A stretch of DNA of 64,000 nt from Aspidiotus rigidus. Its lineage: Eukaryota > Arthropoda > Insecta > Hemiptera > Diaspididae. Shown here piece after piece: positions 12,873 to 61,265 of the stretch (position 1 is the first letter of the stretch; the number at the start of each line of letters is the position of its first letter). Position numbers and translations under genes: made by a program. The stretch is taken from positions 8,952,501 through 9,016,500 of the forward strand of contig JAVHKY010000001.1 of assembly GCA_035079385.1 (NCBI GenBank), written 5' to 3'. The notes beneath the pieces were generated by a model that worked only from the letters and a program-made list of their open reading frames with translations, did not search any database and was not told where the DNA came from.

Positions 12873-13417
12873 TAAAGAGTTAGAAATCGCGGGTTTTTGC
12901 CGAATGATTTTGCTGAGGGGCAGATGAGAAATAATGAAAGATGAGCACGTTTTGGGGTCTCAGGAGGCTGCAAAAAAAAATTTATTTTGCTGAAAAATGC
13001 CGAAAACGGAAGAAATGCCGAAAACAGAGTGAAAGTCCGAAAAGTTCCAAAAAACGAAAAAAAACCAAATATACAGTATTATCGGAAATAAACGCTGAAA
13101 AAAAAAAAAAAAAAAAAAAAAAAATCAGAAACAGACCAAAAGTTGACAGAAAATGTACGTAGGTATTATTACTGCGCGATAATATGAATACGCGTCTACT
13201 CGCGTCTTTCAATGAGTGTACATATGCGTGAGTAATTTCATTGAGCTTGTTCTAACACGAGCATACAGGAGAGATGAGATAGAAGGCAAGATTGAAGTCG
13301 ATGTGATGGAATAATAAACATCAGTAGATACCTATCGGAGTATTCTTGTACATGTCCATTCTTTCATTCTGACTCCGCTGTTCAAATATTCGAGTGCTGT
13401 TTCATTTTGACTTTGTT
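12873..13417. other. Non-coding with poly(A)-rich low-complexity block
   Basis: 12960-13130 is A-rich with repeats of 'ccgaaaa' and a run of about 30 A near 13100. This may be the left end of the hAT element that follows; similar 'gtgccgaaaata' sequence appears after it at 15001. No clean hAT terminus was identified. Confidence 0.4.
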
Positions 13418-14913
13418 ATGGCGACAACCAAAAGAAATTTCAGTGCGTTGTTGCGGAAATGGATCGAGCCGTACAATAAGGATTTCCCGGTATTTTTCTC
13501 AGATGGAAAGACAGTGAGCTGCATACTTTGTGGTAGCAAAACGATTACGTGCACGAAGAAGAGCCATCTGCTATCGCACAGTAATTTGACTGCCCATATT
13601 GCAGCTGTTCACCAAGCGCAAAAGTCAAATTTGAGGCAGAGTACGTTGAGGTATTCCAATCCGTCGTCTCCTGAATCAACATTCAACAATGATCTCTGTG
13701 AGGCCTTCTTAGCCGCAAATATTCCGCTGTCGAAGCTGAATAATCCCACATTGAAGAAATTTTTGCAGAAGTATACAAATATGCATGTTCCAGATGAAAG
13801 CACCCTGCGGAAGAACTATGTACCAAAATTGTACAATGCAGTACTTGAAGATGTGCGAAATCGAATAGGTGAGAAGCCAGTGTACCTAATAGTTGACGAA
13901 ACGACGGATGCCCGTGTAAATTATGTAGCCAATCTCCTCATCGGGTACCTGGCGTGTGATCACGCGGGGGATCCATTTTTAATTGGTTCCGAGTCCTTGG
14001 AGAAAACAAATGCGGCCACCATCAGCACTTTTGTGAATGACTGCCTTGTACGTTTCTACGAAGGACGTCCTTTCTCCAGCAACGTTCTTTTGTTGGTTAC
14101 GGACGCTGCACCATACATGGTACGGATGGGGAAAACGTTGACGGAAATCTTTCCGAGAATGGTGCATGTGACGTGCGTCGCACATGCTATACACAGGACT
14201 TGTGAGACGGTACGAGAGAATTTTTCCGACGTCAATCTACTCATTAGTGCATCTTGGAAGATTTTCTTGAAGTCACCTGCACGTGTACAGCTGTATAAGG
14301 AGAAAATGCAGTGTGCCCTGGCCCCCGATGTCGTCGTCACAAGGTGGGGTGAATGGTTGAAGGCAGCACTTTTTTTTTTGCGGAACACTTTACAACATTT
14401 TCAGAATTGATTGAGGAATTACCGGACGACAGCAAGCACGTTTCAAAACTCAAGTCACTCATCCACACATCTAACACACTGGCCACGGACCTTGCTTTCA
14501 TCTCATCCTATTTAGCCTTCCTGCCACCACTTATTCAGAAATTGGAGACGAGGGGACTGCCATTGGAAGTTCAGCTACAGGTGGTCCAAGATTTAAAAGC
14601 AAAGATCAACGCGATACCCGGTTCTCGTGGGAGCATACTGAAACGGAAGACGGATGACGTCATAGCGAAGAATGTGGGGCTGGGTACTTTGGTCGACCTG
14701 AACAACGCAGTGGTTCACTGCGAGAAGTGTAAACAGAACGGAATGAAAGATCCAACGGTGATCAGTGCTTACTCTTTTGCACATTTGGTGTCTATAGACA
14801 TAGAGCGCTCTTTTTCCAATTATAAATATTTGCTCACTAATAGAAGGCACCGCTTTCTACAAAGCAATATTGAAAAGCATCAAATTATATTGTATAACAA
14901 AAGATTCACCTGA
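13418..14913 (+). pseudogene. hAT-family transposase, complete but for one frameshift
   Basis: ATG 13418 (MATTKRNFSALLRKW). N-terminal BED-like zinc finger (CILCGSKT..HLLSHSNLTAHIAAVH), then catalytic blocks: LIVDETTDARV (first Asp), LLVTDAAPYM (second Asp), VTCVAHAIHRTCE, and near the C-terminus DIERSFSNYKYLLTNRRHRF (Glu and dimerisation region). The frame is lost in a run of 10-11 T at about 14371-14381 (WLKAALFF) and resumes in the next frame (AEHFTTFSELIEEL) to TGA at 14911. It resembles CGGBP1/'FAM'-like hAT transposases. Cut-and-paste element with 8-bp target duplications; termini not found. A homopolymer slip could also be a sequencing error. Confidence 0.85.
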
Positions 14914-15371: not shown

Positions 15372-15759
15372 TAGAAATTTAATCGAACAGAAAAAACACC
15401 AGAAAGAGAACTAGATATCAGACCAAATGACATTAAAGAATTCCTAGCAACCCGAGGCAATACAGCACCCGGAATTGATGGAATACAGTACAACCACCTC
15501 AAGATAATACATAAAAACTACCCAGAAATAATAACAAATATGGTCAACGTATGTATCAAACACCAGATCTACCCAAACCAATTCAAAATAGCTCAACTAG
15601 CACTGATACCAAAACCAAATAAGAATCTACAGTACACCAAATCATACCACCCATTATATCCCTACTATTGTGTCTACAAAAAGAAGATCAAGCACCAATT
15701 GAACCAGGGGAAAAACCTACATCCAAACCAATATGGTTTTTGAGAGGAGATATCGTGTG

Positions 15760-15765
15760 AAGATG
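15760..15765. repeat. Target-site duplication AAGATG (left)
   Basis: AAGATG immediately before AGTAGTAAGG; identical AAGATG at 20833-20838 immediately after the right end. Confidence 0.9.
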
Positions 15766-16076
15766 AGTAGTAAGGTCCCCCCTTCGGTACACCTGTACCG
15801 AAAGGGTGACTGTATGGAAAAAAAATATTTGGGGAAAAAAAAATTGAAAAAAAAAAATAATAAAAAAAAATTGAAAAAAAAAATAAAATAAAAATAAAAA
15901 ATAATAATATTATTTCAACCTTCGCCACGAGCCTAGAACTGTACCGAAAGGGGGACTGTATAAAAAAATAAAATAATAAAAAAAATTAAAAATTAAAAAA
16001 AAATAAATAAAATAAAAAATAAATATATTTTTTTATATGTCAGTGTGAGTCCAGAACTGTACCAAAAGGGGGACTG
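15766..16076 (+). repeat. Left terminal inverted repeat of orphan element
   Basis: Begins AGTAGTAAGG. Bases 15783-15802 (TTCGGTACACCTGTACCGAA) can fold as a 9-bp hairpin with a CC loop. The word GTACCGAAAGGGGGACTG recurs at about 15795, 15942 and, with one change, 16059, separated by A-rich runs. Confidence 0.85.
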
Positions 16077-16127
16077 AATGAGAAAAAATGAGTCCACTGT
16101 TAGAGTCTAGCATCATCATCCTCATCA

Positions 16128-16712
16128 CTAGAAGTATAATTCTCCTCTTCTTCTTCTTTGTCTTGAAATATAATTAGCTGTCTTTAACTCTTTTAGAGTT
16201 AAATCTAAATCAGCGGTGGTAATATGGTACTTGGTCACACATTCACAATCAGTTGGATAGTCTATGTACTCATCTTTTAAGCAAGTACATTCTAGACAAT
16301 TTTCCTCACAAAAACAACAACAACGAAAATTATTATGTCTAGGTTTACACTCAACAAGTTTCTTCCCATCAAACTTTATAAAACCCGACCGTGTACAAGA
16401 ATATTCATTAGGGCTAACATATATCATAACATTATTTAAAACTAATGTCGTATAATAATCATGATCAAAGTGTTTACATAGAATATTATATATTACATTT
16501 GGTACAAGATCCCTTACACATACCAGAGGTCGATCAGAAGCGCAAGGTGGATTAGAACATGGAATATAAGACTTGCTGATAATTTCTTTAAACGCATTTT
16601 CCGGATTTATACACATATTTTGTACCATCTGCGCATAATTTTTTGTTTTATTTTTGTAGCCCTGAGAAGGACTTTTTTGAGAAGTAGTAGCAGCAACAGA
16701 GCAAGACGACAT
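16128..16712 (-). CDS. Cys-rich orphan protein A of the element
   Basis: 194 residues from ATG 16712 (MSSCSVAATTSQ) to stop at 16128. Ser/Thr-rich start, then NYAQMVQNMCINPENAFKEI; a central part with paired cysteines (PCSNPPCASDRP..CVRDL); and a dense cysteine cluster (NNFRCCCFCEENCLECTCL...DCECV) that could bind zinc or form disulphides. The C-terminus is basic (SRQRRRRGEL). No signal peptide or membrane segment is visible. I do not recognise a family. A TATA-like box lies 55 bp upstream (16765-16773) inside a 30-bp promoter-like block repeated before 20194. The stop of protein B lies only 17 bp beyond that TATA. Confidence 0.65.
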   Translation of the reverse strand: MSSCSVAATTSQKSPSQGYKNKTKNYAQMVQNMCINPENAFKEIISKSYIPCSNPPCASDRPLVCVRDLVPNVIYNILCKHFDHDYYTTLVLNNVMIYVSPNEYSCTRSGFIKFDGKKLVECKPRHNNFRCCCFCEENCLECTCLKDEYIDYPTDCECVTKYHITTADLDLTLKELKTANYISRQRRRRGELYF

Positions 16713-16740
16713 GATACCTATACTAATTATCAAATCGTAA

Positions 16741-16773
16741 TAACCTCTGTAAAAACCTACAACTCCTTATATA
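16741..16773 (-). promoter_or_regulatory. Promoter-like block with TATA for protein A
   Basis: Reads on minus TATATAAGGAGTTGTAGGTT then TTTACAGAGGTTA. An almost identical block (TATATAAAGAGTTGTAGG...) starts at 20162 on plus. Confidence 0.55.
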
Positions 16774-16789
16774 ATCCCCTAAGGAATTC

Positions 16790-17362
16790 TTATTCATCAT
16801 CATCATCATTACTACTACTACTACTACTACTGTATTCACTCTCAGAGTTATCACTATATTCGTATTCGGATTTATAGTCTGTTAAAAATGCAGTCAGAGC
16901 TTCGATTACACATAACTTGTCTCTTAAATAATCTTGAAATGAATCTAAGTCAAGTTTTTTGAGATTGATATTTTGTAAATTTAATTTACGAATCTCAGCG
17001 ATATCGATTTTATGAGGTGGGATGTGTGAAAAATCTATACAACAATTAGGTAGACTTCTTTCCCATTGTAGAAAGTTACTTTCTTTCATAATCTCCCAAT
17101 CATGTACGCTCGAATCTCTATTTACGTGAGCTTTACCAAAGTTTTTCAAAAATTTTAATTCCTCTCGAGTTAATTCTCCAGTCTCAACGTAACAGATGAT
17201 ACGAAAGAAATGGTCTCCTCGATCATCAGACGTGAAATCCAGACATAAGATTTCTTTATCTTTTGCTCGAATAATTTCTTTTCGCATACGATCTAAGTTG
17301 GAAATTACAGACTTCCAGTCTTTCTCTTCTTGAAGTTTTTGCAATAAGTTTTCCCAGTCCAT
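16790..17362 (-). CDS. Orphan protein B of the element (acidic Ser/Asp tail)
   Basis: 190 residues from ATG 17362 (MDWENLLQKLQEEKDW). Mostly helical and charged: SVISNLDRMRKEIIRAKDKEIL, HFFRIICYVETGELTREELKFLKNFGKA, then WERSLPNCCIDFSHIPPHKI and a Leu-rich part (IRKLNLQNINLKKLDLDSFQDYL). The end is a low-complexity acidic tail (SESEYSSSSSSSNDDDDE) encoded by ACT and ATC trinucleotide runs at 16795-16830. No family recognised. A clear TATATAAATAC box lies about 80 bp upstream (17437-17448). Confidence 0.65.
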   Translation of the reverse strand: MDWENLLQKLQEEKDWKSVISNLDRMRKEIIRAKDKEILCLDFTSDDRGDHFFRIICYVETGELTREELKFLKNFGKAHVNRDSSVHDWEIMKESNFLQWERSLPNCCIDFSHIPPHKIDIAEIRKLNLQNINLKKLDLDSFQDYLRDKLCVIEALTAFLTDYKSEYEYSDNSESEYSSSSSSSNDDDDE

Positions 17363-17436
17363 ATTACTCGTACGACAACAAGATGTGAACTAGAAAGCTT
17401 CACCGGATGAATTAAAACTCAGACCATCTCGCACTT

Positions 17437-17448
17437 GTATTTATATAC
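17437..17448 (-). promoter_or_regulatory. TATA box upstream of protein B
   Basis: On minus GTATATAAATAC, about 75-86 bp before ATG 17362. Confidence 0.5.
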
Positions 17449-17480
17449 TTTTTCTGGAAGTGAGCAATATTCTACTATAT

Positions 17481-17804
17481 TTAAATTATGGAACAACAAT
17501 TAGTTTCTTCTTTTTTTCGAACATAAGTACCAGAATACAATCTTATTAATTTATTTACAGTTTCTTTTCGAGTTTCATAGAATGAGCAGAAACACCTATC
17601 TGGTCTAGTGATTAAAGGAGAATCCCAAGACCACGGGCACGTACTCCAGTGTTCTGCACCGTATTTATTAAGAATTAATTTCGAACCAACAAATTTCTGT
17701 TGAAACTTATCAAAACTTTTGAAATATTCTTCATGTTCAGGTAACATATTCTCCCTAAACCCTTCAAGAATTTCTTGAATATTAAGAGGTACAAAATCGA
17801 GCAT
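17481..17804 (-). CDS. Orphan protein C of the element with C-terminal CaaX-like box
   Basis: 107 residues from ATG 17804 (MLDFVPLNIQEILEGFRENM) to TAA at 17481. Contains HEEYFKSFDKFQQKFVGSKL, a Trp/Cys block (HWSTCPWSWDSP) and RPDRCFCSFYETRKETVNKLIRL. It ends ETNCCSII: Cys-Ser-Ile-Ile fits a CaaX prenylation signal with an extra upstream Cys, so membrane anchoring is possible. Same strand and orientation as A and B, about 120 bp from B. No family recognised. Confidence 0.6.
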   Translation of the reverse strand: MLDFVPLNIQEILEGFRENMLPEHEEYFKSFDKFQQKFVGSKLILNKYGAEHWSTCPWSWDSPLITRPDRCFCSFYETRKETVNKLIRLYSGTYVRKKEETNCCSII

Positions 17805-17911
17805 TTTTCAAATTGTTTTTTACTATCGTCGCTCTATTAATATTATGTTAACCGTAAGGAAACTAAGTTACACGAGTATACGTACAGAGCGAGAGCGGTA
17901 TCAGGTGATTA

Positions 17912-18523
17912 ATGTACCTAGAAAAAAGGCGGTATCAGGTAATTATGCTCACATCATCAAATAATGCAGAAAAAATAAGCCCGAGAGAAAAGTATTGTCC
18001 ACCAAGAAATCACTCGTATTATTGCATTCATTACATTCGATCAATTCCTCGTGTAAAAATGTTTGTAATAATTTGTATTATCACCATGATCTACTACTTT
18101 ATTCGGTGAGTATCCATTTTTCAAATTTTTCTCATCATTTCTTTGTTCAGTTTTGTGACAAGTTTTTTTTTTTTTTTTATGAAATAGTTTCTGGCGTAAA
18201 GACAAACAAAATAATTCTCATCCAGAAGAAGAGAATTTGATGTAAGTTTTTTCAATATTATATACTCAGAAATGTTGTGTGTATAAAAAAAAAATCGACC
18301 AAAAATGACCAAAAAACGACCAAAAAGAGCCAATTTCGACTAAAATCGACCAAAAAGAGCCAGAATCGACCAAAAACGACCAAAAAGAGCCAATTTCGAC
18401 TAAAATCGACCAAAAAGAGCCAGAATCGACCAAAATTGAGCAAAAAGAGCCAGAATCGACCAACAATGTGTGTATTTCTTTTTTTCTCTTAGACTAAAAA
18501 ATTATCCTAATTCGGAATCGTGA
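17912..18523 (+). CDS. Candidate spliced small membrane protein D of the element
   Basis: ORF from ATG 17912 (or internal ATG 18059) reaches a consensus donor (ttcg|gtgagt) after 18105. Exons 18188-18241 and 18493-18523 follow in phase with GT..AG borders, ending at TGA 18521. The end of exon 1 encodes a hydrophobic stretch (MFVIICIITMIYYFI), then a positive RFWRKDK and a hydrophilic tail, a typical single-span membrane protein. The downstream start at 18059 would give about 43 residues, the upstream one about 92. The second intron holds the 30-bp repeats. Evidence is splice-phase consistency only. Confidence 0.4.
18288..18475 (+). repeat. 30-bp tandem repeat inside an intron of the orphan element
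   Basis: About six units of the type 'CRATTTCGACYAAAATCGAC' plus 'CAAAAAGAGC', with an exact 60-bp higher-order period (18331 and 18391). A seventh, diverged group is at 18609-18690. Confidence 0.8.
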
Positions 18524-19487
18524 TGATGGTGGAATTATTTCAACGTTTTTTGTTTTATCTTTTGAATTCAGGATGACGTAAAGGAAATGTTGAATTTTTT
18601 CCTACATTTAAAATCGACCAAAAAGAGCCAATTTCGACTAAAAACGACGAAAAACGACTAGAATCAACAAAAAACGACCAGATTCACTTTTACAAGTGGT
18701 GAGAAAATTTGTGGAAGCGTTCTATTTTTTTTAACTTATAATAATATTTAATTCTATTTTCGCGAGCTTGCTCGCGCAATTCTTTCACACCTAAGTTCTT
18801 AAAAGAACTGTTATTAATTGCGGAAACGAAAGCTTGTGTCATTGTACGCAGTGCAGTGCAGTGTGTATACGTAGACTGAGCTGTCGAAAGACAATGAGAA
18901 AATAATTAGTCGTCGATTCAATTTATAATTTTTTGGTCGAGTGGGCGGAGTCTCATATATTCGTCGTTGTCCGAATATTATTTTCACGACTGTCAAAACA
19001 GTTTTGTTGGACACCGCAGGTGTATCGAATGGTCGCGGTAGCGTTAATTACTGAGAATTTGTCGTCGTCGGCACGTGTGGTCGAGCCGCGTTGTGGAATT
19101 GCGTTCACATTCTATAACTGAATACTTTTTTTTACATTCCAATGTTTTTTTCTTCTGTTTCAGCGATCGATATGACGAACTCTATATTAGCATTCGCAGG
19201 TACTTGTACTATGAAAATAAAATGTTGAAGTACAAAAAAAAACTGTCGTCTATGTTAAATACTTGTAAATAATGAATAATGAATTATACACCGTTCCCGA
19301 CAATAAGTAACTGTGTTTTTTTTCCCTCATTCGTCCGTATGACATAGGTTTCAGTCGTATGACATAGGTTTCAGTCGTAATACGTAACTGTATTTCACAC
19401 TTCTCGGAAGCTTGGATTTCAATTTCTTTCCGTCACGACACATGTAAATAGGCTATCGTTTCTGCTCGTTATTTTCGCACTTACATT
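18524..19487. other. Central gap of orphan element, one possible exon
   Basis: 18768-18783 is a perfect palindrome CGCGAGCTTGCTCGCG. After a good acceptor (tctgtttcag) at 19164, bases 19165-19272 read DRYDELYISIRRYLYYENKM... to TAA, exon-like. A phase-matched open stretch ends at 19019 (cgcag|gtgtat) but has no Met. Short direct repeat 'atgacataggtttcagtcgt' at 19340 and 19360. Nothing else seen. Confidence 0.3.
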
Positions 19488-19676
19488 ATGGAGAATAAAA
19501 AACGTAAACACGAAGAGATTGAAGAATGCTCGTTCAAAAGGGTAGGCTCTGGGAAATATAATTCATTGCAGGAACAACGTGAACGAGAAATACAAAAAGA
19601 AAAATTACAAACTTATTGGGAAGAATTGGAAGAACGTAAAAAACGAATAGAACATTATAAAAGTAAGACACTCTAG
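19488..19676 (+). CDS. Orphan protein E of the element, charged coiled coil
   Basis: 62 residues from ATG 19488: MENKKRKHEEIEECSFKRVG then QEQREREIQKEKLQTYWEELEE and RKKRIEHYK, a highly charged helical segment likely to form a coiled coil, with a basic KKRKH patch at the start (possible nuclear signal). A donor-like aaaa|gtaaga sits near the stop (about 19663), so it may instead be a first exon. No family recognised. Confidence 0.4.
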   Translation: MENKKRKHEEIEECSFKRVGSGKYNSLQEQREREIQKEKLQTYWEELEERKKRIEHYKSKTL

Positions 19677-19815
19677 CTGCATTGGGTCACTTCATCATAG
19701 GTCGAGTTATTGAAAAGAAGTACTAGCTGTAGACCTATACTCGTGTAGCTGGACATTTTTAACTGAATATAATCAGAGGGAGGAAGTAAATCTAGTCATT
19801 TCTGATCAAAACATC

Positions 19816-20160
19816 ATGGGGAAAAGATTTGAGTTTTGGAAACATCTCTGTCTTCTCTATATAGATGATAAATTAGAAGCTAGTTGTGTTTTAGGAAGAA
19901 TGACAGAAAATGATAAATATATGCTCACCTTTTATGATTCAGAGAATGTGAGCTCGAGAAAATTAATAAAATATAGTTATAGAAATGGAGAATATTTTGT
20001 AGAACTTTTGCAAGAAATTAAAAAAAGAACCATACTCTACACATGTATGTCAATTGATGACGACGATCAAGATCTATTTTTTAAGGCCAAGTTTTGGGGT
20101 AGATGGGATGTAATGAGTTACCACCCAACAGCTAAAATCATGTTTATATCACATTATTGA
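19816..20160 (+). CDS. Orphan protein F of the element
   Basis: 114 residues from ATG 19816 (MGKRFEFWKHLCLLYIDDK) to TGA at 20158. Features: alternating strands LEASCVLGRMTENDKYMLTFYDSE, SYRNGEYFVELLQEIKKRTILY, an acidic SIDDDDQDLFF, and an aromatic end (FWGRWDVMSYHP...). Looks like a compact globular domain; no family recognised. The repeated TATA block at 20162 begins one base after its stop, so spacing is as tight as in a small viral genome. Confidence 0.55.
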   Translation: MGKRFEFWKHLCLLYIDDKLEASCVLGRMTENDKYMLTFYDSENVSSRKLIKYSYRNGEYFVELLQEIKKRTILYTCMSIDDDDQDLFFKAKFWGRWDVMSYHPTAKIMFISHY

Positions 20161-20161
20161 C

Positions 20162-20191
20162 TATATAAAGAGTTGTAGGTTTTTACAGAGG
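20162..20191 (+). promoter_or_regulatory. Second copy of the TATA promoter-like block
   Basis: TATATAAAGAGTTGTAGG then TTTTTACAGAGGT, mirroring 16741-16773 on the other strand. The next ATG (20194) opens only about 22 codons (MKTGRLLSFNK...), so the gene it drove may be deleted or spliced. Confidence 0.5.
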
Positions 20192-20531
20192 TCATGAAAA
20201 CTGGAAGATTACTGTCCTTTAATAAAATCAGAGTGGATAATTTTCATCAAAAAGTAGGTATATAAGTAGGTGTATCCTGAAAAAAGTATTCATTTGCTTT
20301 TGAAAGCTTATCCTGTAAATATGGTTCACTGATAGAGGTAGGTAGGAAAGAAAAACATCTTTTTCCATGTAGTCCCCCTTTCAGTACACTTCTAGACTCA
20401 TTGGGTGTTTGAAATAATATATTTTTATTTTTATTTTATTTTTTTAATTAATTAATTAATTTATTTATTTTTATTTATTTATTCAGTCACCCTTTCGGTA
20501 CACTTCTAGACTTATTAGATATACTTTTTTC

Positions 20532-20832
20532 ATCCAGTCCCCCTTTCGGTACAGTTCTAGGCTCACACTGACATATAAAACAATATATTTATTTTTTATT
20601 TTATTTATTTTTTTTAATTTTTAATTTTTTTTATTATTTTATTTTTTTATACAGTCCCCCTTTCGGTACAGTTCTAGGCTCGTGGCGAAGGTTGAAATAA
20701 TATAATTATTTTTTATTTTTTTTTTCAATTTTTTTTTTATTATTTTTTTTTCAATTTTTTTTTCCCAAATATTTTTTTTTCCATACAGTCACCCTTTCGG
20801 TACAGGTGTACCGAAGGGGGGACCTTACTACT
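20532..20832 (-). repeat. Right terminal inverted repeat of orphan element
   Basis: Reverse complement matches 15766-16076 apart from A-run lengths and a few substitutions. Inside it, at 20375-20531, two further copies of the CCCTTTCGGTACA word extend the array on this side only. Confidence 0.85.
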
Positions 20833-20838
20833 AAGATG
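20833..20838. repeat. Target-site duplication AAGATG (right)
   Basis: Matches 15760-15765; followed directly by continuing LINE RT sequence. Confidence 0.9.
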
Positions 20839-38526: not shown

Positions 38527-39425
38527 CTAATGGATATTAATGGGAGGTAAGAGGTCATGTATAGTAGGAGCAATATGATGAAATAGTTGAGGGAGGAGGA
38601 TTATGTAAAATATTATAATTAATAAAAAGGCGAGGAAAAAAAGAATAGTAAACACTATATCGGTGAGAAAGCGCGACCCGTATAACGTATTCGTAGTGTA
38701 TTGCAACGATATGTTTCGTAGTTCTGTCTCGTACTCTCTGACTGTTTTTAAATGCACCGTAGGAACGGTGATCTTCCACTCAGGGTTGATTGGGTTTAAG
38801 TTACTGTCGTAATTGTGCAGAGTATGTAAACCATGACCTATCATTTGTGGTGGCACGTGTGTCCATTGAGCCGGTATAATGCGAATAATGTTGTGCGAGT
38901 TTGTTTCGTCGGGGGAAAAGCATGGAATGGCCTTGTCGACAACGGTGATGTATGTACCGTTATCTTGCGTCTCGATGATTTTGCTCGTACAACGAATACG
39001 TACGTATGACGCGCCTATCGTAGAAAAAGATGGATTCACCTGACGTGACGTATTGTTTTCGAATAGAATGTGAGTAGCGTGTGACGGGTTTGCTATGACG
39101 TATTCTCTGTAGTTGACGTGGTATACAGACGGTAATGTGGTATCCTGGTACTTCGTAGGCGTGCAGTAAAATTGGCAAAACGAATTAAGTGTGGAAATGT
39201 TAGATTTAGAAAAGAGAGACTTAATACAAGCTGCGTTTTGATCGAAAATTATTGGAGTTAGTCTGCATAGTTGTTCTTCTTCGCGACAATGGTCTAAACC
39301 ATTGCCAGAAATAATCTGGACTGAATTGGTTTCTGTGTTCCTGACTAAGAAAGATTTTTGTAATAGGATTTTGCATAACTCGGCGCCATTCTGATAATCG
39401 AGAGGTATACATTCCTGTGAGGGAA
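38527..39425 (-). pseudogene. Env-like glycoprotein, C-terminal part, of an endogenous retroelement
   Basis: About 300 codons open on minus from about 39425 (no start Met) to the stop at 38527. Features: several Cys, N-glycosylation-type NXT/S sites (ENNTSRQ, DNGTY), a TM-like segment near the end (FTILFFLAFLLIIIFYIIL) and a short tail. This matches the membrane-proximal and anchoring part of an insect retrovirus-type envelope; the surface half is missing at the junction with hAT sequence (about 39430). No further identification was attempted. Confidence 0.5.
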
Positions 39426-39434
39426 CTTTTTTTC

Positions 39435-57850: not shown

Positions 57851-57913
57851 TATAATAAATTTTTAAAGGCACTGACGTCAACAAAAACAAAAACACACAA
57901 ATTAAACCCGACG

Positions 57914-58718
57914 AATATATCATACTAATCTGTTACCATCATTTGCCATGTCTAATCATATCACTTTTTCAAATCAATCATCAAGCGTTGCTTACTTTCA
58001 TTCTTGTTCCACTATTATTTCATTTATTTCAGAAATTAATCGATCAATTATTGAATTTGGTATTAAAGTTGAGTGCGTCCATTATGAATCATACATTCCA
58101 GGAAAACACCACTTTGAGTTCATCCTCTACCGTCTCCGATCTACTTCCAACATTAGAGTTCGACACTTTAATATAGGATAAAAGAATATATCATACTAAT
58201 CTGTTACCATCATTTGCCATGTCTAATCATATCACTTTTTCAAATCAATCATCAAGCGTTGCTTACTTTCATTCTTGTTCCACTATTATTTCATTTATTT
58301 CAGAAATTAATCGATCAATTATTGAATTTGGTATTAAAGTTGAGTGCGTCCATTATGAATCATACATTCCAGGAAAACACCACTTCGAGTTCATCCTCTA
58401 CCGTCTCCGATCTACTTCCAACATTGGAGTTCGACACTTTAATATAGGATAAAAGAATATATCATACTAATCTGTTACCATCATTTGCCATGTATAATCA
58501 TATCACTTTTTCAAATCAATCATCAAGCGTTGCTTACTTTCATTCTTGTTCCACTATTATTTCATTTATTTCAGAAATTAATCGATCAATTATTGAATTT
58601 GGTATTAAAGTTGAGTGCGTCCATTATGAATCATACATTCCAGGAAAACACCACTTCGAGTTCATCCTCTACCGTCTCCGATCTACTTCCAACATTGGAG
58701 TTCGACACTTTAATATCA
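57914..58718 (+). repeat. 271-bp tandem repeat, three copies (third partial at its end)
   Basis: AATATATCATACTAATCTGT begins units at 57914, 58185 and 58456; copies differ at only a few positions. The third unit changes after 'cactttaatat' (about 58717) to the hammerhead segment. Confidence 0.9.
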
Positions 58719-59693: not shown

Positions 59694-60448
59694 GCGTTCG
59701 TGTTTACGTACAAAATGTTTCGAAAAACACATTTTGTACCTTACACAGAACTCCGAGAATGGTTTCACGCGATGGCAATGAACAACAAAGCTCAGTTAAA
59801 TGATGAAAAATTTCCATTCAACAGAGCAAACTTTACGCGAGGAAAGGGAAACTCACAACATTCGATTCGAAGTAGATTTATAGGAAGAGGTCGGGGTGCT
59901 CAAAATAATCAAGCTAATCGAAAATCCTCTTCTACAGAGTTTTGCACCAGGTGCCAGGTCCAAAGACACGATTGAAGGTCGTGCCCTAATAAAACATGCC
60001 CCGCATGTTTGAAGCGGCCGGTGGACGCGGCACACATAGCGGAATGTGCGCGTGAGCACCGCGCTAGAGTGCTGGCTGACCGCACTACAAATAGAGAGCG
60101 TCATGATGAACAACGGCGAACAGGACGTGCTGCGACACGTGGTCGCGGTACAAGTACGAGTACAACTGCAGGAACTGTGTACCGGTCTCAGCCGGCAAAT
60201 AATGGTAATTCTAGATATAACCTTAATACAAGTCGTAGTAAACCAAATACTAACGGTTCGATTAATGCGCAGTGGGTCAAAATCGAGGGAGAGGAGGTTG
60301 TTCCCGCCGATCGCGGCGAGGTGGGAGCCTACAGGCTCAAATTGCCAAGTAAGGATACCATTACCACTAAGAGTTGTGTCGATTCAGGGGGCAATGTTAC
60401 AATATATGATAGTGAAATTTACGGAACCGCTACACATCAGTCCTCCCC
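59694..60448 (+). pseudogene. Retroelement gag-protease fragment inserted in the LINE
   Basis: Open frame from about 59694 (VFTYKMFRKTHFVPYTELRE) through basic RGKGNSQH..RSRFIGRGRGAQ, zinc-binding FCTRCQVQRHD...CPNKTCPACLKRP..AHIAEC, a basic linker and finally KSCVDSGGNVTIYDSEIYG, the start of a retropepsin domain (DSG-x-N). One in-frame TGA at 59973. LINE sequence resumes at about 60449. No integrase or RT of its own. Confidence 0.65.
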
Positions 60449-61186
60449 TTTACTCAATCCACAATGAGAAAGCTGATACGTATGGAAGTGCGTACCAACT
60501 AATACTGCAAGATAAATTCCCCAGAATCAATAATCCTGGTAGCGTATTTATCCCTGGTCCACTCCTATCCTACCAAACCATCGAGTCATATACACACCAT
60601 CCTAACATACTACCATATCCTGAAGCAACTACTCCAGAACAGGCTGAAATAACGCAGGCGGAAGTGAGAGACATACTAAGAAGTCGCAATAATAAGTCAG
60701 CACCAGGGTTAGACCAAATTAGGTACACTCATGTCAAAATGTTCAACAAAACACACCCCAATGTGCTTCTTGAACTAATTAATGCATGCCTGCAGTACCA
60801 ACACTACCCAGATATCTACAAGCTGGCAAAACTATCCGTTCTACTCAAACCAGCCAAGGACCCGCACATAACCAGTGCGTATCGTCCACTATCTCTTCTT
60901 CCAGCTATAGGAAATGTTATAGAAAAAGTTATTTCTAATCTAATAACTGACTATCTCGACAATTTAGCCCCAAAGACCCTTAGTCCAAGCCAATTTGGCT
61001 TCCGTAGAAACACCTCCCCTGAAGCGGCACTCTCTAGAGTAATCTACGAGCTCCAGGAGTCATCACTTCAGGGTGATTATACAATAGCCATATCTTTTGA
61101 TATAGAAGCGGCATTTGATTCTATGCTATACCAAGCTATACTTATCGGATTTCAAAACTTCAGAATTCCCGAATACCTAGTGAATA

Positions 61187-61265
61187 TCATTCACTCCTAT
61201 CTACACTCTCGCATAGCAATCTTCCAAGATTGTATGTACTATCCCGAAAAGTGATGCCCGCAGGC
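61187..61265 (+). repeat. 79-bp direct duplication flanking an insert, left copy
   Basis: ATCATTCACTCCTATCTACA to GATGCCCGCAGG; right copy 61839-61917. They differ at one base, which gives a TGA stop in the left copy (aagTgatg versus aagGgatg). Confidence 0.9.

Follow-up and report, generated by a model that had tools for sequence, protein, structure and literature searches.

The window analysed here is a stretch of 64,000 bp from the genome of the hemipteran Aspidiotus rigidus (contig JAVHKY010000001.1, positions 8,952,501 to 9,016,500). It includes a 5,067 bp element that is very probably a non-autonomous derivative, shaped by deletion and recombination, of a Polinton/Maverick family resident in the same genome. 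The preliminary description of this DNA had proposed a non-autonomous Polinton-type element, and larger copies with the same ends, which carry genes for integrase, capsid, ATPase and the polymerase PolB, bear this out. The parent family appears to have been kept as two complementary forms, one with the major capsid, ATPase and integrase genes (Form I) and one with PolB (Form II). Below, L numbers denote stretches of this 441 Mb genome and C numbers its contigs; the window lies on C1.

The borders of the element, its inverted ends of about 300 bp, the AAGATG duplication on both sides and the insertion into a long interspersed element (LINE) reverse transcriptase (RT) gene, as described previously, were all confirmed:
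Whole element, 15766..20832, 5,067 bp
Left target-site duplication, AAGATG, 15760..15765
Right target-site duplication, AAGATG, 20833..20838
Left terminal inverted repeat (TIR), 15766..16086, + strand; opens AGTAGTAAGG, contains the iterated TACCGAAAGGGGGACTGTA motif and is also found at other genome sites
Right TIR, 20525..20832, - strand; extra motif copies lie inward of it at 20368-20386 and 20482-20500
Terminal palindrome, 15766..15815 and likewise 20783-20832; two head-to-head motif copies, hairpin possible
LINE RT fragment broken by the insertion, 15375..15743, + strand; resumes past 20838

The termini are AGTAGTAAGG...CCTTACTACT, that is, AGTAGT...ACTACT. The two arms (approximately 310 bp) are built of repeat units of approximately 118 bp and share 92.6% identity over 323 aligned columns, gaps in A/T runs being the main difference. 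With up to three mismatches allowed, TACCGAAAGGGGGACTGTA was matched 10 times in the window (chance, 0.02), always within the arms or close inside the right one. Fold z-scores for the + and - strands were -6.6 and -4.9 at the right tip and -2.7 and -3.6 at the left. When the flanks were joined, a single RT frame was restored (...GF*EEISCEDVLHHLIRIIETNRENSNITLLVPIDIEAAFDSM...), with one stop close to the join and the end of the frame further on. As both persist after rejoining, the host LINE was already defective when the element inserted. By eye, it resembles the LINE at 60040-61254.

Duplications of 6 bp, long TIRs and (AGT)2//(ACT)2 ends are shared with Polintons/Mavericks, and the same ends and duplications are given for vertebrate Mavericks in the sections of PMC8097293 available to us. 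According to the available part of PMC10045372, the cut-and-paste transposons IS3EU and GingerRoot also make 6 bp duplications, and an unrelated transposon of that kind, with captured viral genes, could in principle look similar. The same text gives their ends as TA..TA, occasionally TG..CA in GingerRoot, against AG..CT here, and the larger same-ended copies carry Polinton genes. A cut-and-paste origin is thus extremely improbable, and an IS3EU or Ginger identity was excluded by ends and relatives.

Between the arms, the following genes and segments were found:
Gene A, 16128..16712, - strand; 194 aa, Cys-rich, 33% identical to p141 of Form II and 40% to an A paralogue in Form I
TATA-like sequence upstream of A, 16740..16776, - strand; putative promoter, inverted repeat of 20159-20195
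Gene B, 16790..17362, - strand; 190 aa, acidic tail
Gene C, 17481..17804, - strand; 107 aa with a CCxI tail and H/C residues that are conserved; related database proteins, P0001 and P0002
Rearranged insert with (CGACCAAAAA)n minisatellite, 18278..18723; 95.7% identical to L019 983-1425, order inverted
Stump of a terminal-protein (TP)/PolB gene, 18720..18842, - strand; first 41 codons, 97.6% identity, truncated at the junction
Right module, 18721..20832; 92.4% identical to L011 (Form I), 92.6% to L012 (Form II) and 96.2% to L022 (C56)
Gene E, 19488..19676, + strand; 62 aa, 100% identical in L011, L012 and L025
Gene F, 19816..20160, + strand; 114 aa, 97% identical in L011 and L012, where it has 117 aa
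Second TATA-like copy, after F and directed to the right end, 20159..20195, + strand; putative promoter

Genes A, B and C point leftward, E and F rightward. The core holds four open reading frames (ORFs) of at least 100 aa that start with ATG; this number was reached in none of 1000 dinucleotide shuffles, nor was a length of 190 aa. At least six compact genes had been claimed. Five (A, B, C, E and F) are backed by other copies, and the sixth, a spliced gene D with exons near 18056-18242 and 19165-19271 that are in frame by eye, was not counted because a rearrangement junction falls between the exons. The GC-richer part of its supposed intron is the TP/PolB stump. This stump had been overlooked when the element was said to lack any recognisable polymerase, integrase or capsid gene. 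Beyond those 41 codons there is nothing of a PolB in the element, for an rve integrase there are only short matches to a minisatellite-encoded N-terminus, and double jelly-roll (DJR) capsid and packaging ATPase searches found no match in the window. Short 'INT' matches of 26-35 aa at several loci were rejected as minisatellite read as protein rather than integrase.

The genes had also been called novel. No Pfam family was above the cut-off for A, B, C, E or F, and they are nonetheless the end modules of larger Polintons. In PDB, no convincing match was returned for A, B, C or F (E was not searched), and in a large protein set, at E<=10, A and B had no relatives (E and F were not searched there). 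Gene C had two in that set, from distinct sources, with 99-100% coverage, identities of 67% and 63% and E values of 3e-46 and 2e-34. As these independent relatives match over nearly the full length and retain both the H/C pattern and the CCxI tail, C is a real protein. The tail resembles what we take to be a lipid-anchor signal. Among viral contigs, A, B, C, F, the A1 profile of C, the capsid protein and the TIR motif found no match, and C found none in a collection of genome contigs. A structure of C predicted from three sequences was poor (pLDDT 41). Two weak hits were taken as chance: the C profile against Crov588 (E 0.0021), where no single stretch passed, and a stretch of A against a histone stem-loop family (26.9 bits, E 0.00018), which is below the cut-off of 34 and lies within coding sequence.

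When the left TIR was used to query its own genome, at least 74 matches were returned (40 of the 177 candidates were scored), and identical flanking 6-mers were present in all 17 distinct insertions with both ends read:
Form I insertions (six), C52:8408419, C52:8793965, C52:8836451, C52:11516687, C33 and C48; 12.1-12.6 kb
PolB-bearing insertions, C24, C20, C10 and C52:12051905; 13.5-13.7 kb
Shortened PolB-bearing insertion, C21:887342; 10.7 kb
Other insertions (six), the window element, C13, C56, C21:925800, C72 and C29

Shortened elements with perfect duplications are 4.3 kb (C72), 4.9 kb (C21:925800), 6.2 kb (C29), 7.9 kb (C56) and 8.7 kb (C13) long. The C13 element was found twice with identical flanks and entered once in the count, the second copy being probably a later segmental duplication. 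Larger relatives with this TIR carry, between them, rve integrase, DJR capsid, A32-type ATPase and PolB genes, as Polintons/Mavericks do.

For the left 1.85 kb or so of the window element (A, B and part of C), identities of 96.9-98.5% were found to seven further loci. These come from four separate insertions: C24, C13 (both ends and the duplicate), C11 and C28. One of these loci, L002, is the left end of the 13.5 kb C24 copy, and A-B-C forms the left end of the PolB copies of approximately 13.5 kb. The inverted minisatellite piece matches, in the C28 copy (L019), sequence situated below the minor capsid gene, and minisatellite stretches lie at module borders in the C13, C11 and C28 copies too. 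Because the stump, the end modules and the inverted minisatellite piece all match larger copies, we conclude that the window element arose from such copies by deletion and rearrangement and is not a primitive virus; a stand-alone small virus was rejected because of its ends and relatives. The C13 copy is a mosaic, with A-B-C inverted at both ends and an ATPase fragment and both capsid genes between, and since one perfect duplication still flanks the whole copy, the mosaic probably predates its insertion. Capsid genes stand together with A-B-C in the C11 copy as well. The CGACCAAAAA minisatellite itself lies at 18290-18680 in the window and at module borders in L009, L019, L021 and L023; in L009 it is translated into the N-terminus of the integrase frame.

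Some points weigh against this derivation. The right module is 4-8% off from the copies compared, so the exact parent was not found, and the last 17 codons of gene A are in a different frame in all seven other loci. The dN/dS comparison is based on too few changes: across six loci, A and B have 1-7 nonsynonymous and 0-2 synonymous codon changes, so at this shallow depth purifying selection cannot be seen. The element is also known from sequence rather than from an observed transposition, transcript or particle.

The gene order of Form I was pieced together from three separate copies (L009, L010 and L011) and runs A paralogue, integrase, protease-like, p185, PLA2-like, p166, minor capsid protein (mCP), major capsid protein (MCP), ATPase, TP frame, E, F. 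Pfam matches were obtained for rve (3.7e-10), the DJR major capsid (1.2e-46), the A32-type ATPase (3.9e-7) and the PLA2-like protein (3.8e-10), and the adenain-like protease reached 0.041 with Peptidase_C5, which is under the cut-off. The mCP had no Pfam match and is presumed from its position and a resemblance. All seven middle pieces that span the run (L010, L035, L036, L038, L040, L041 and L043; L037 covers it in part) have the same order, TP end-ATPase-MCP-mCP-p166, without PolB; for L040, L041 and L043 both element ends were not read. By a start-motif scan, the ATPase is full length in 7/7 pieces, MCP in 5/7 (L036 has a stop and the start motif was unmatched in L043) and mCP in 3/7 (L043 ends at 169 residues, and the motif was unmatched in L036, L040 and L041). 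Integrase was read solely in L009 and in L039, the shortened C29 copy.

Form II carries a PolB (DNA_pol_B_2, 1.3e-58) that is present at 100% identity and free of stops at eight genome sites. The PolB search returned at least 53 matches, among them sister families (53-77%) and, at C21:953872, a fragment with 96% identity and two stops. Downstream of PolB lie p141, a TATA-binding protein (TBP; Pfam 2.1e-44, PDB 1cdw 5e-43), a 162 aa protein that we call exo on a presumed resemblance and that has no Pfam match, mCP, C, B, A and the TIR, read as far as C in L023 and to the tip in L044, where the mCP frame is broken. In C21:887342, mCP-C-B-A has given way to an A-paralogue fragment. On the identities listed above, A is a member of a Cys-rich family represented on both forms. 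The TIR is 3.2-5.7 kb past PolB in all eight 100% copies. The other element end is known in five of them, and as these total 10.7-13.7 kb, they are too short to accommodate ATPase, MCP and integrase as well; C61, C15 and C21:4896093 were seen without their right end, and in the last two the interval from PolB to the TIR is unread. TBP is encoded at L023:468-1013 and also in L013, L014, L024 and L044, and is 60-63% conserved in the sister stretches L026, L029 and L033. PMC10675990 reports TATA-binding proteins from an alga, in viral elements that lack a capsid, and not from animal Polintons.

The deletions of the two forms are complementary. The Form I TP frame shares 98% identity with that of Form II up to a point and then runs into sequence that matches the PolB 3' end at 81%, with the ATPase directly next to it. 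As TP abuts a PolB remnant and then the ATPase, some 3.5 kb (vOTU and polymerase parts) was removed from a parent in which the ATPase followed PolB, and the ATPase is still next to PolB in sisters L026, L028, L029, L031 and L033. With 19% divergence in the remnant against 98% identity in TP, Form I looks old. The MCP/mCP join holds minisatellite and the last bases of exo, and a second deletion probably took p141-TBP-exo from between them. Form II, where read, is without ATPase-MCP and the p166-to-integrase segment. Its vOTU part was assigned by order and what we take to be the motif, and no family match was found for it (L014:12-700). According to the preprint PMC11071308, Polinton PolB is laid out TP-vOTU-EXO-PALM and is probably cleaved at the TP/vOTU border. 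The Form I frame ends just before the presumed vOTU and therefore would yield a stand-alone TP.

The sisters are nine stretches of approximately 9.9 kb beside diverged PolB copies, the ends and duplications of which are unread. Capsid and integrase matches occur together in four (L028, with integrase in two pieces, L031, L032 and L033), and capsid genes without integrase within the stretch in L026 and L029. As sister stretches combine PolB, capsid and integrase, an arrangement with the full gene set in one place is probably ancestral. In L027, with a 76% PolB, only a homologue of C, at 65%, and some small orphan frames lie downstream, one of the frames being A-like by eye, so the Form II layout may recur in one sister. 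L030 has solely B fragments, 9 kb off, and L034 was taken from the wrong side of PolB. Diverged PolB pairs in opposite orientation, a few kb apart, were seen at G000:C11:627762-637929 and G000:C52:5704508-5714022. These pairs and the inverted A-B-C of C13 may be inverted-dimer-like forms, products of protein-primed replication.

Two accounts of this split were weighed. Forms I and II might complement one another as a single virus-like genome, a bipartite or multipartite Polinton to which the window element would belong as a satellite or a third part; we put this forward tentatively, at somewhat below even chances. PolB was found together with the major capsid and ATPase genes in none of the eight PolB copies (both ends known in five) and in none of the seven Form I middle pieces. 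The PolB-TIR stretches that were read hold p141-TBP-exo and then mCP-C-B-A or the A-paralogue fragment, the age of the Form I remnant suggests a long-lived form, and L027 may repeat the layout in a sister, while capsid and integrase stand together beside more distant PolB copies in 4/9 stretches. Against this, the absence of a complete copy holds for the copies read and an unseen one is possible, other Polintons of the genome could provide PolB or capsid, integrase was read in one Form I copy and one shortened copy, and the capsid genes beside A-B-C in C11 and C13 indicate that modules mix freely.

Alternatively, Forms I and II and the window element are amplified defectives of a monopartite helper now lost, rare or absent from the assembly, which we consider about an even chance. 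More distant families do combine capsid, integrase and PolB, deletion shapes are numerous, the junction minisatellites ease deletions, and one defective amplified repeatedly could also yield many like copies. Decayed copies also occur, with PolB in pieces in C56, two stops in C21:953872 and the MCP stop in L036. Less easily explained by a helper are two recurrent architectures with intact frames (MCP 5/7, ATPase 7/7, PolB 8/8). A two-part family would extend, not oppose, the derivation of the window element from larger Polintons. In full, it would be an endogenous, recently active bipartite Polinton with A-B-C-E-F satellites, split from a monopartite Polinton via complementary deletions, partly at minisatellites; we regard this too as possible but not favoured.

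Mobilisation in trans had been proposed for the window element and is most likely; the inference is strong because the element has no integrase or PolB of its own and is nevertheless flanked by a perfect 6 bp duplication. It has retained the cis-acting ends (the TIR with its iterated motif and terminal palindrome) and the end modules A-B-C on the left and E-F on the right. The core for replication and capsid formation is gone, in a deletion that passes through the TP/PolB gene, the gap being bridged by the inverted minisatellite piece. By analogy with Polintons, the TIR would be recognised by the integrase and the replication machinery. PolB from the family's other copies would probably replicate the element in trans in a protein-primed reaction, and a Polinton integrase, supplied by Forms I/II or other Polintons here, would insert it as one unit. 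The family's own TBP may recognise the TATA-like repeats that precede A and follow F. As a guess, A, B, C, E and F serve accessory regulation of replication or of the host, with C membrane-anchored.

Deleted non-autonomous DNA transposons and defective viral genomes likewise keep their ends, lose the core and move in trans. The window element differs from them in that five small frames are kept and two standard incomplete forms exist alongside. From Polintons/Mavericks it differs in lacking the core genes, and its family in that PolB and the major capsid/integrase genes were found on separate elements; to our knowledge, animal Polintons have been described as single units carrying everything. 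The segmented densovirus AdSDV is, as far as we know, a parvovirus without PolB or integrase. A bipartite genome is reported for this DNA virus of animals (PMC10267136). The silkworm bidensovirus (Bidnaviridae) has two segments, a Polinton-type PolB and terminal repeats; CP and PolB are encoded on the main segment, and gene replacement in that segment has been proposed as the origin of the second (PMC4061559, as excerpted). By the same excerpts, bidnaviruses are single-stranded DNA viruses with a parvovirus-like capsid and keep CP and PolB together, in contrast to the family here, in which PolB and the DJR capsid module were parted by complementary deletion. Theory on an origin of multipartite viruses from complementary defectives has been set out (PMC10223652 and PMC10159356, from the parts available). 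If the two-part account is true, the family would be a natural case of that route, and two complementary halves beside all-gene families and satellites in one genome would make a multipartite origin readable from clean insertions. A search of the literature on non-autonomous, satellite and split or bipartite Polintons, adintoviruses and Polinton TBP, with subscription journals mostly uncovered, turned up nothing recognisable as this layout. In this family, a Polinton carries a TATA-binding protein of its own, alongside the orphan genes A, B, C, E and F.

Elsewhere in the window, an ORF just upstream of the interrupted LINE (13373-14410) has a DUF659 domain (Pfam 1.9e-9) and is presumably transposase-like. 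A 301 aa ORF at 38527-39432 (- strand), which had no Pfam match, has a hydrophobic C-terminal stretch and looks envelope-like by eye. A tandem repeat at 57913-58716 comprises 3.0 copies of a 271 bp unit at 99%.

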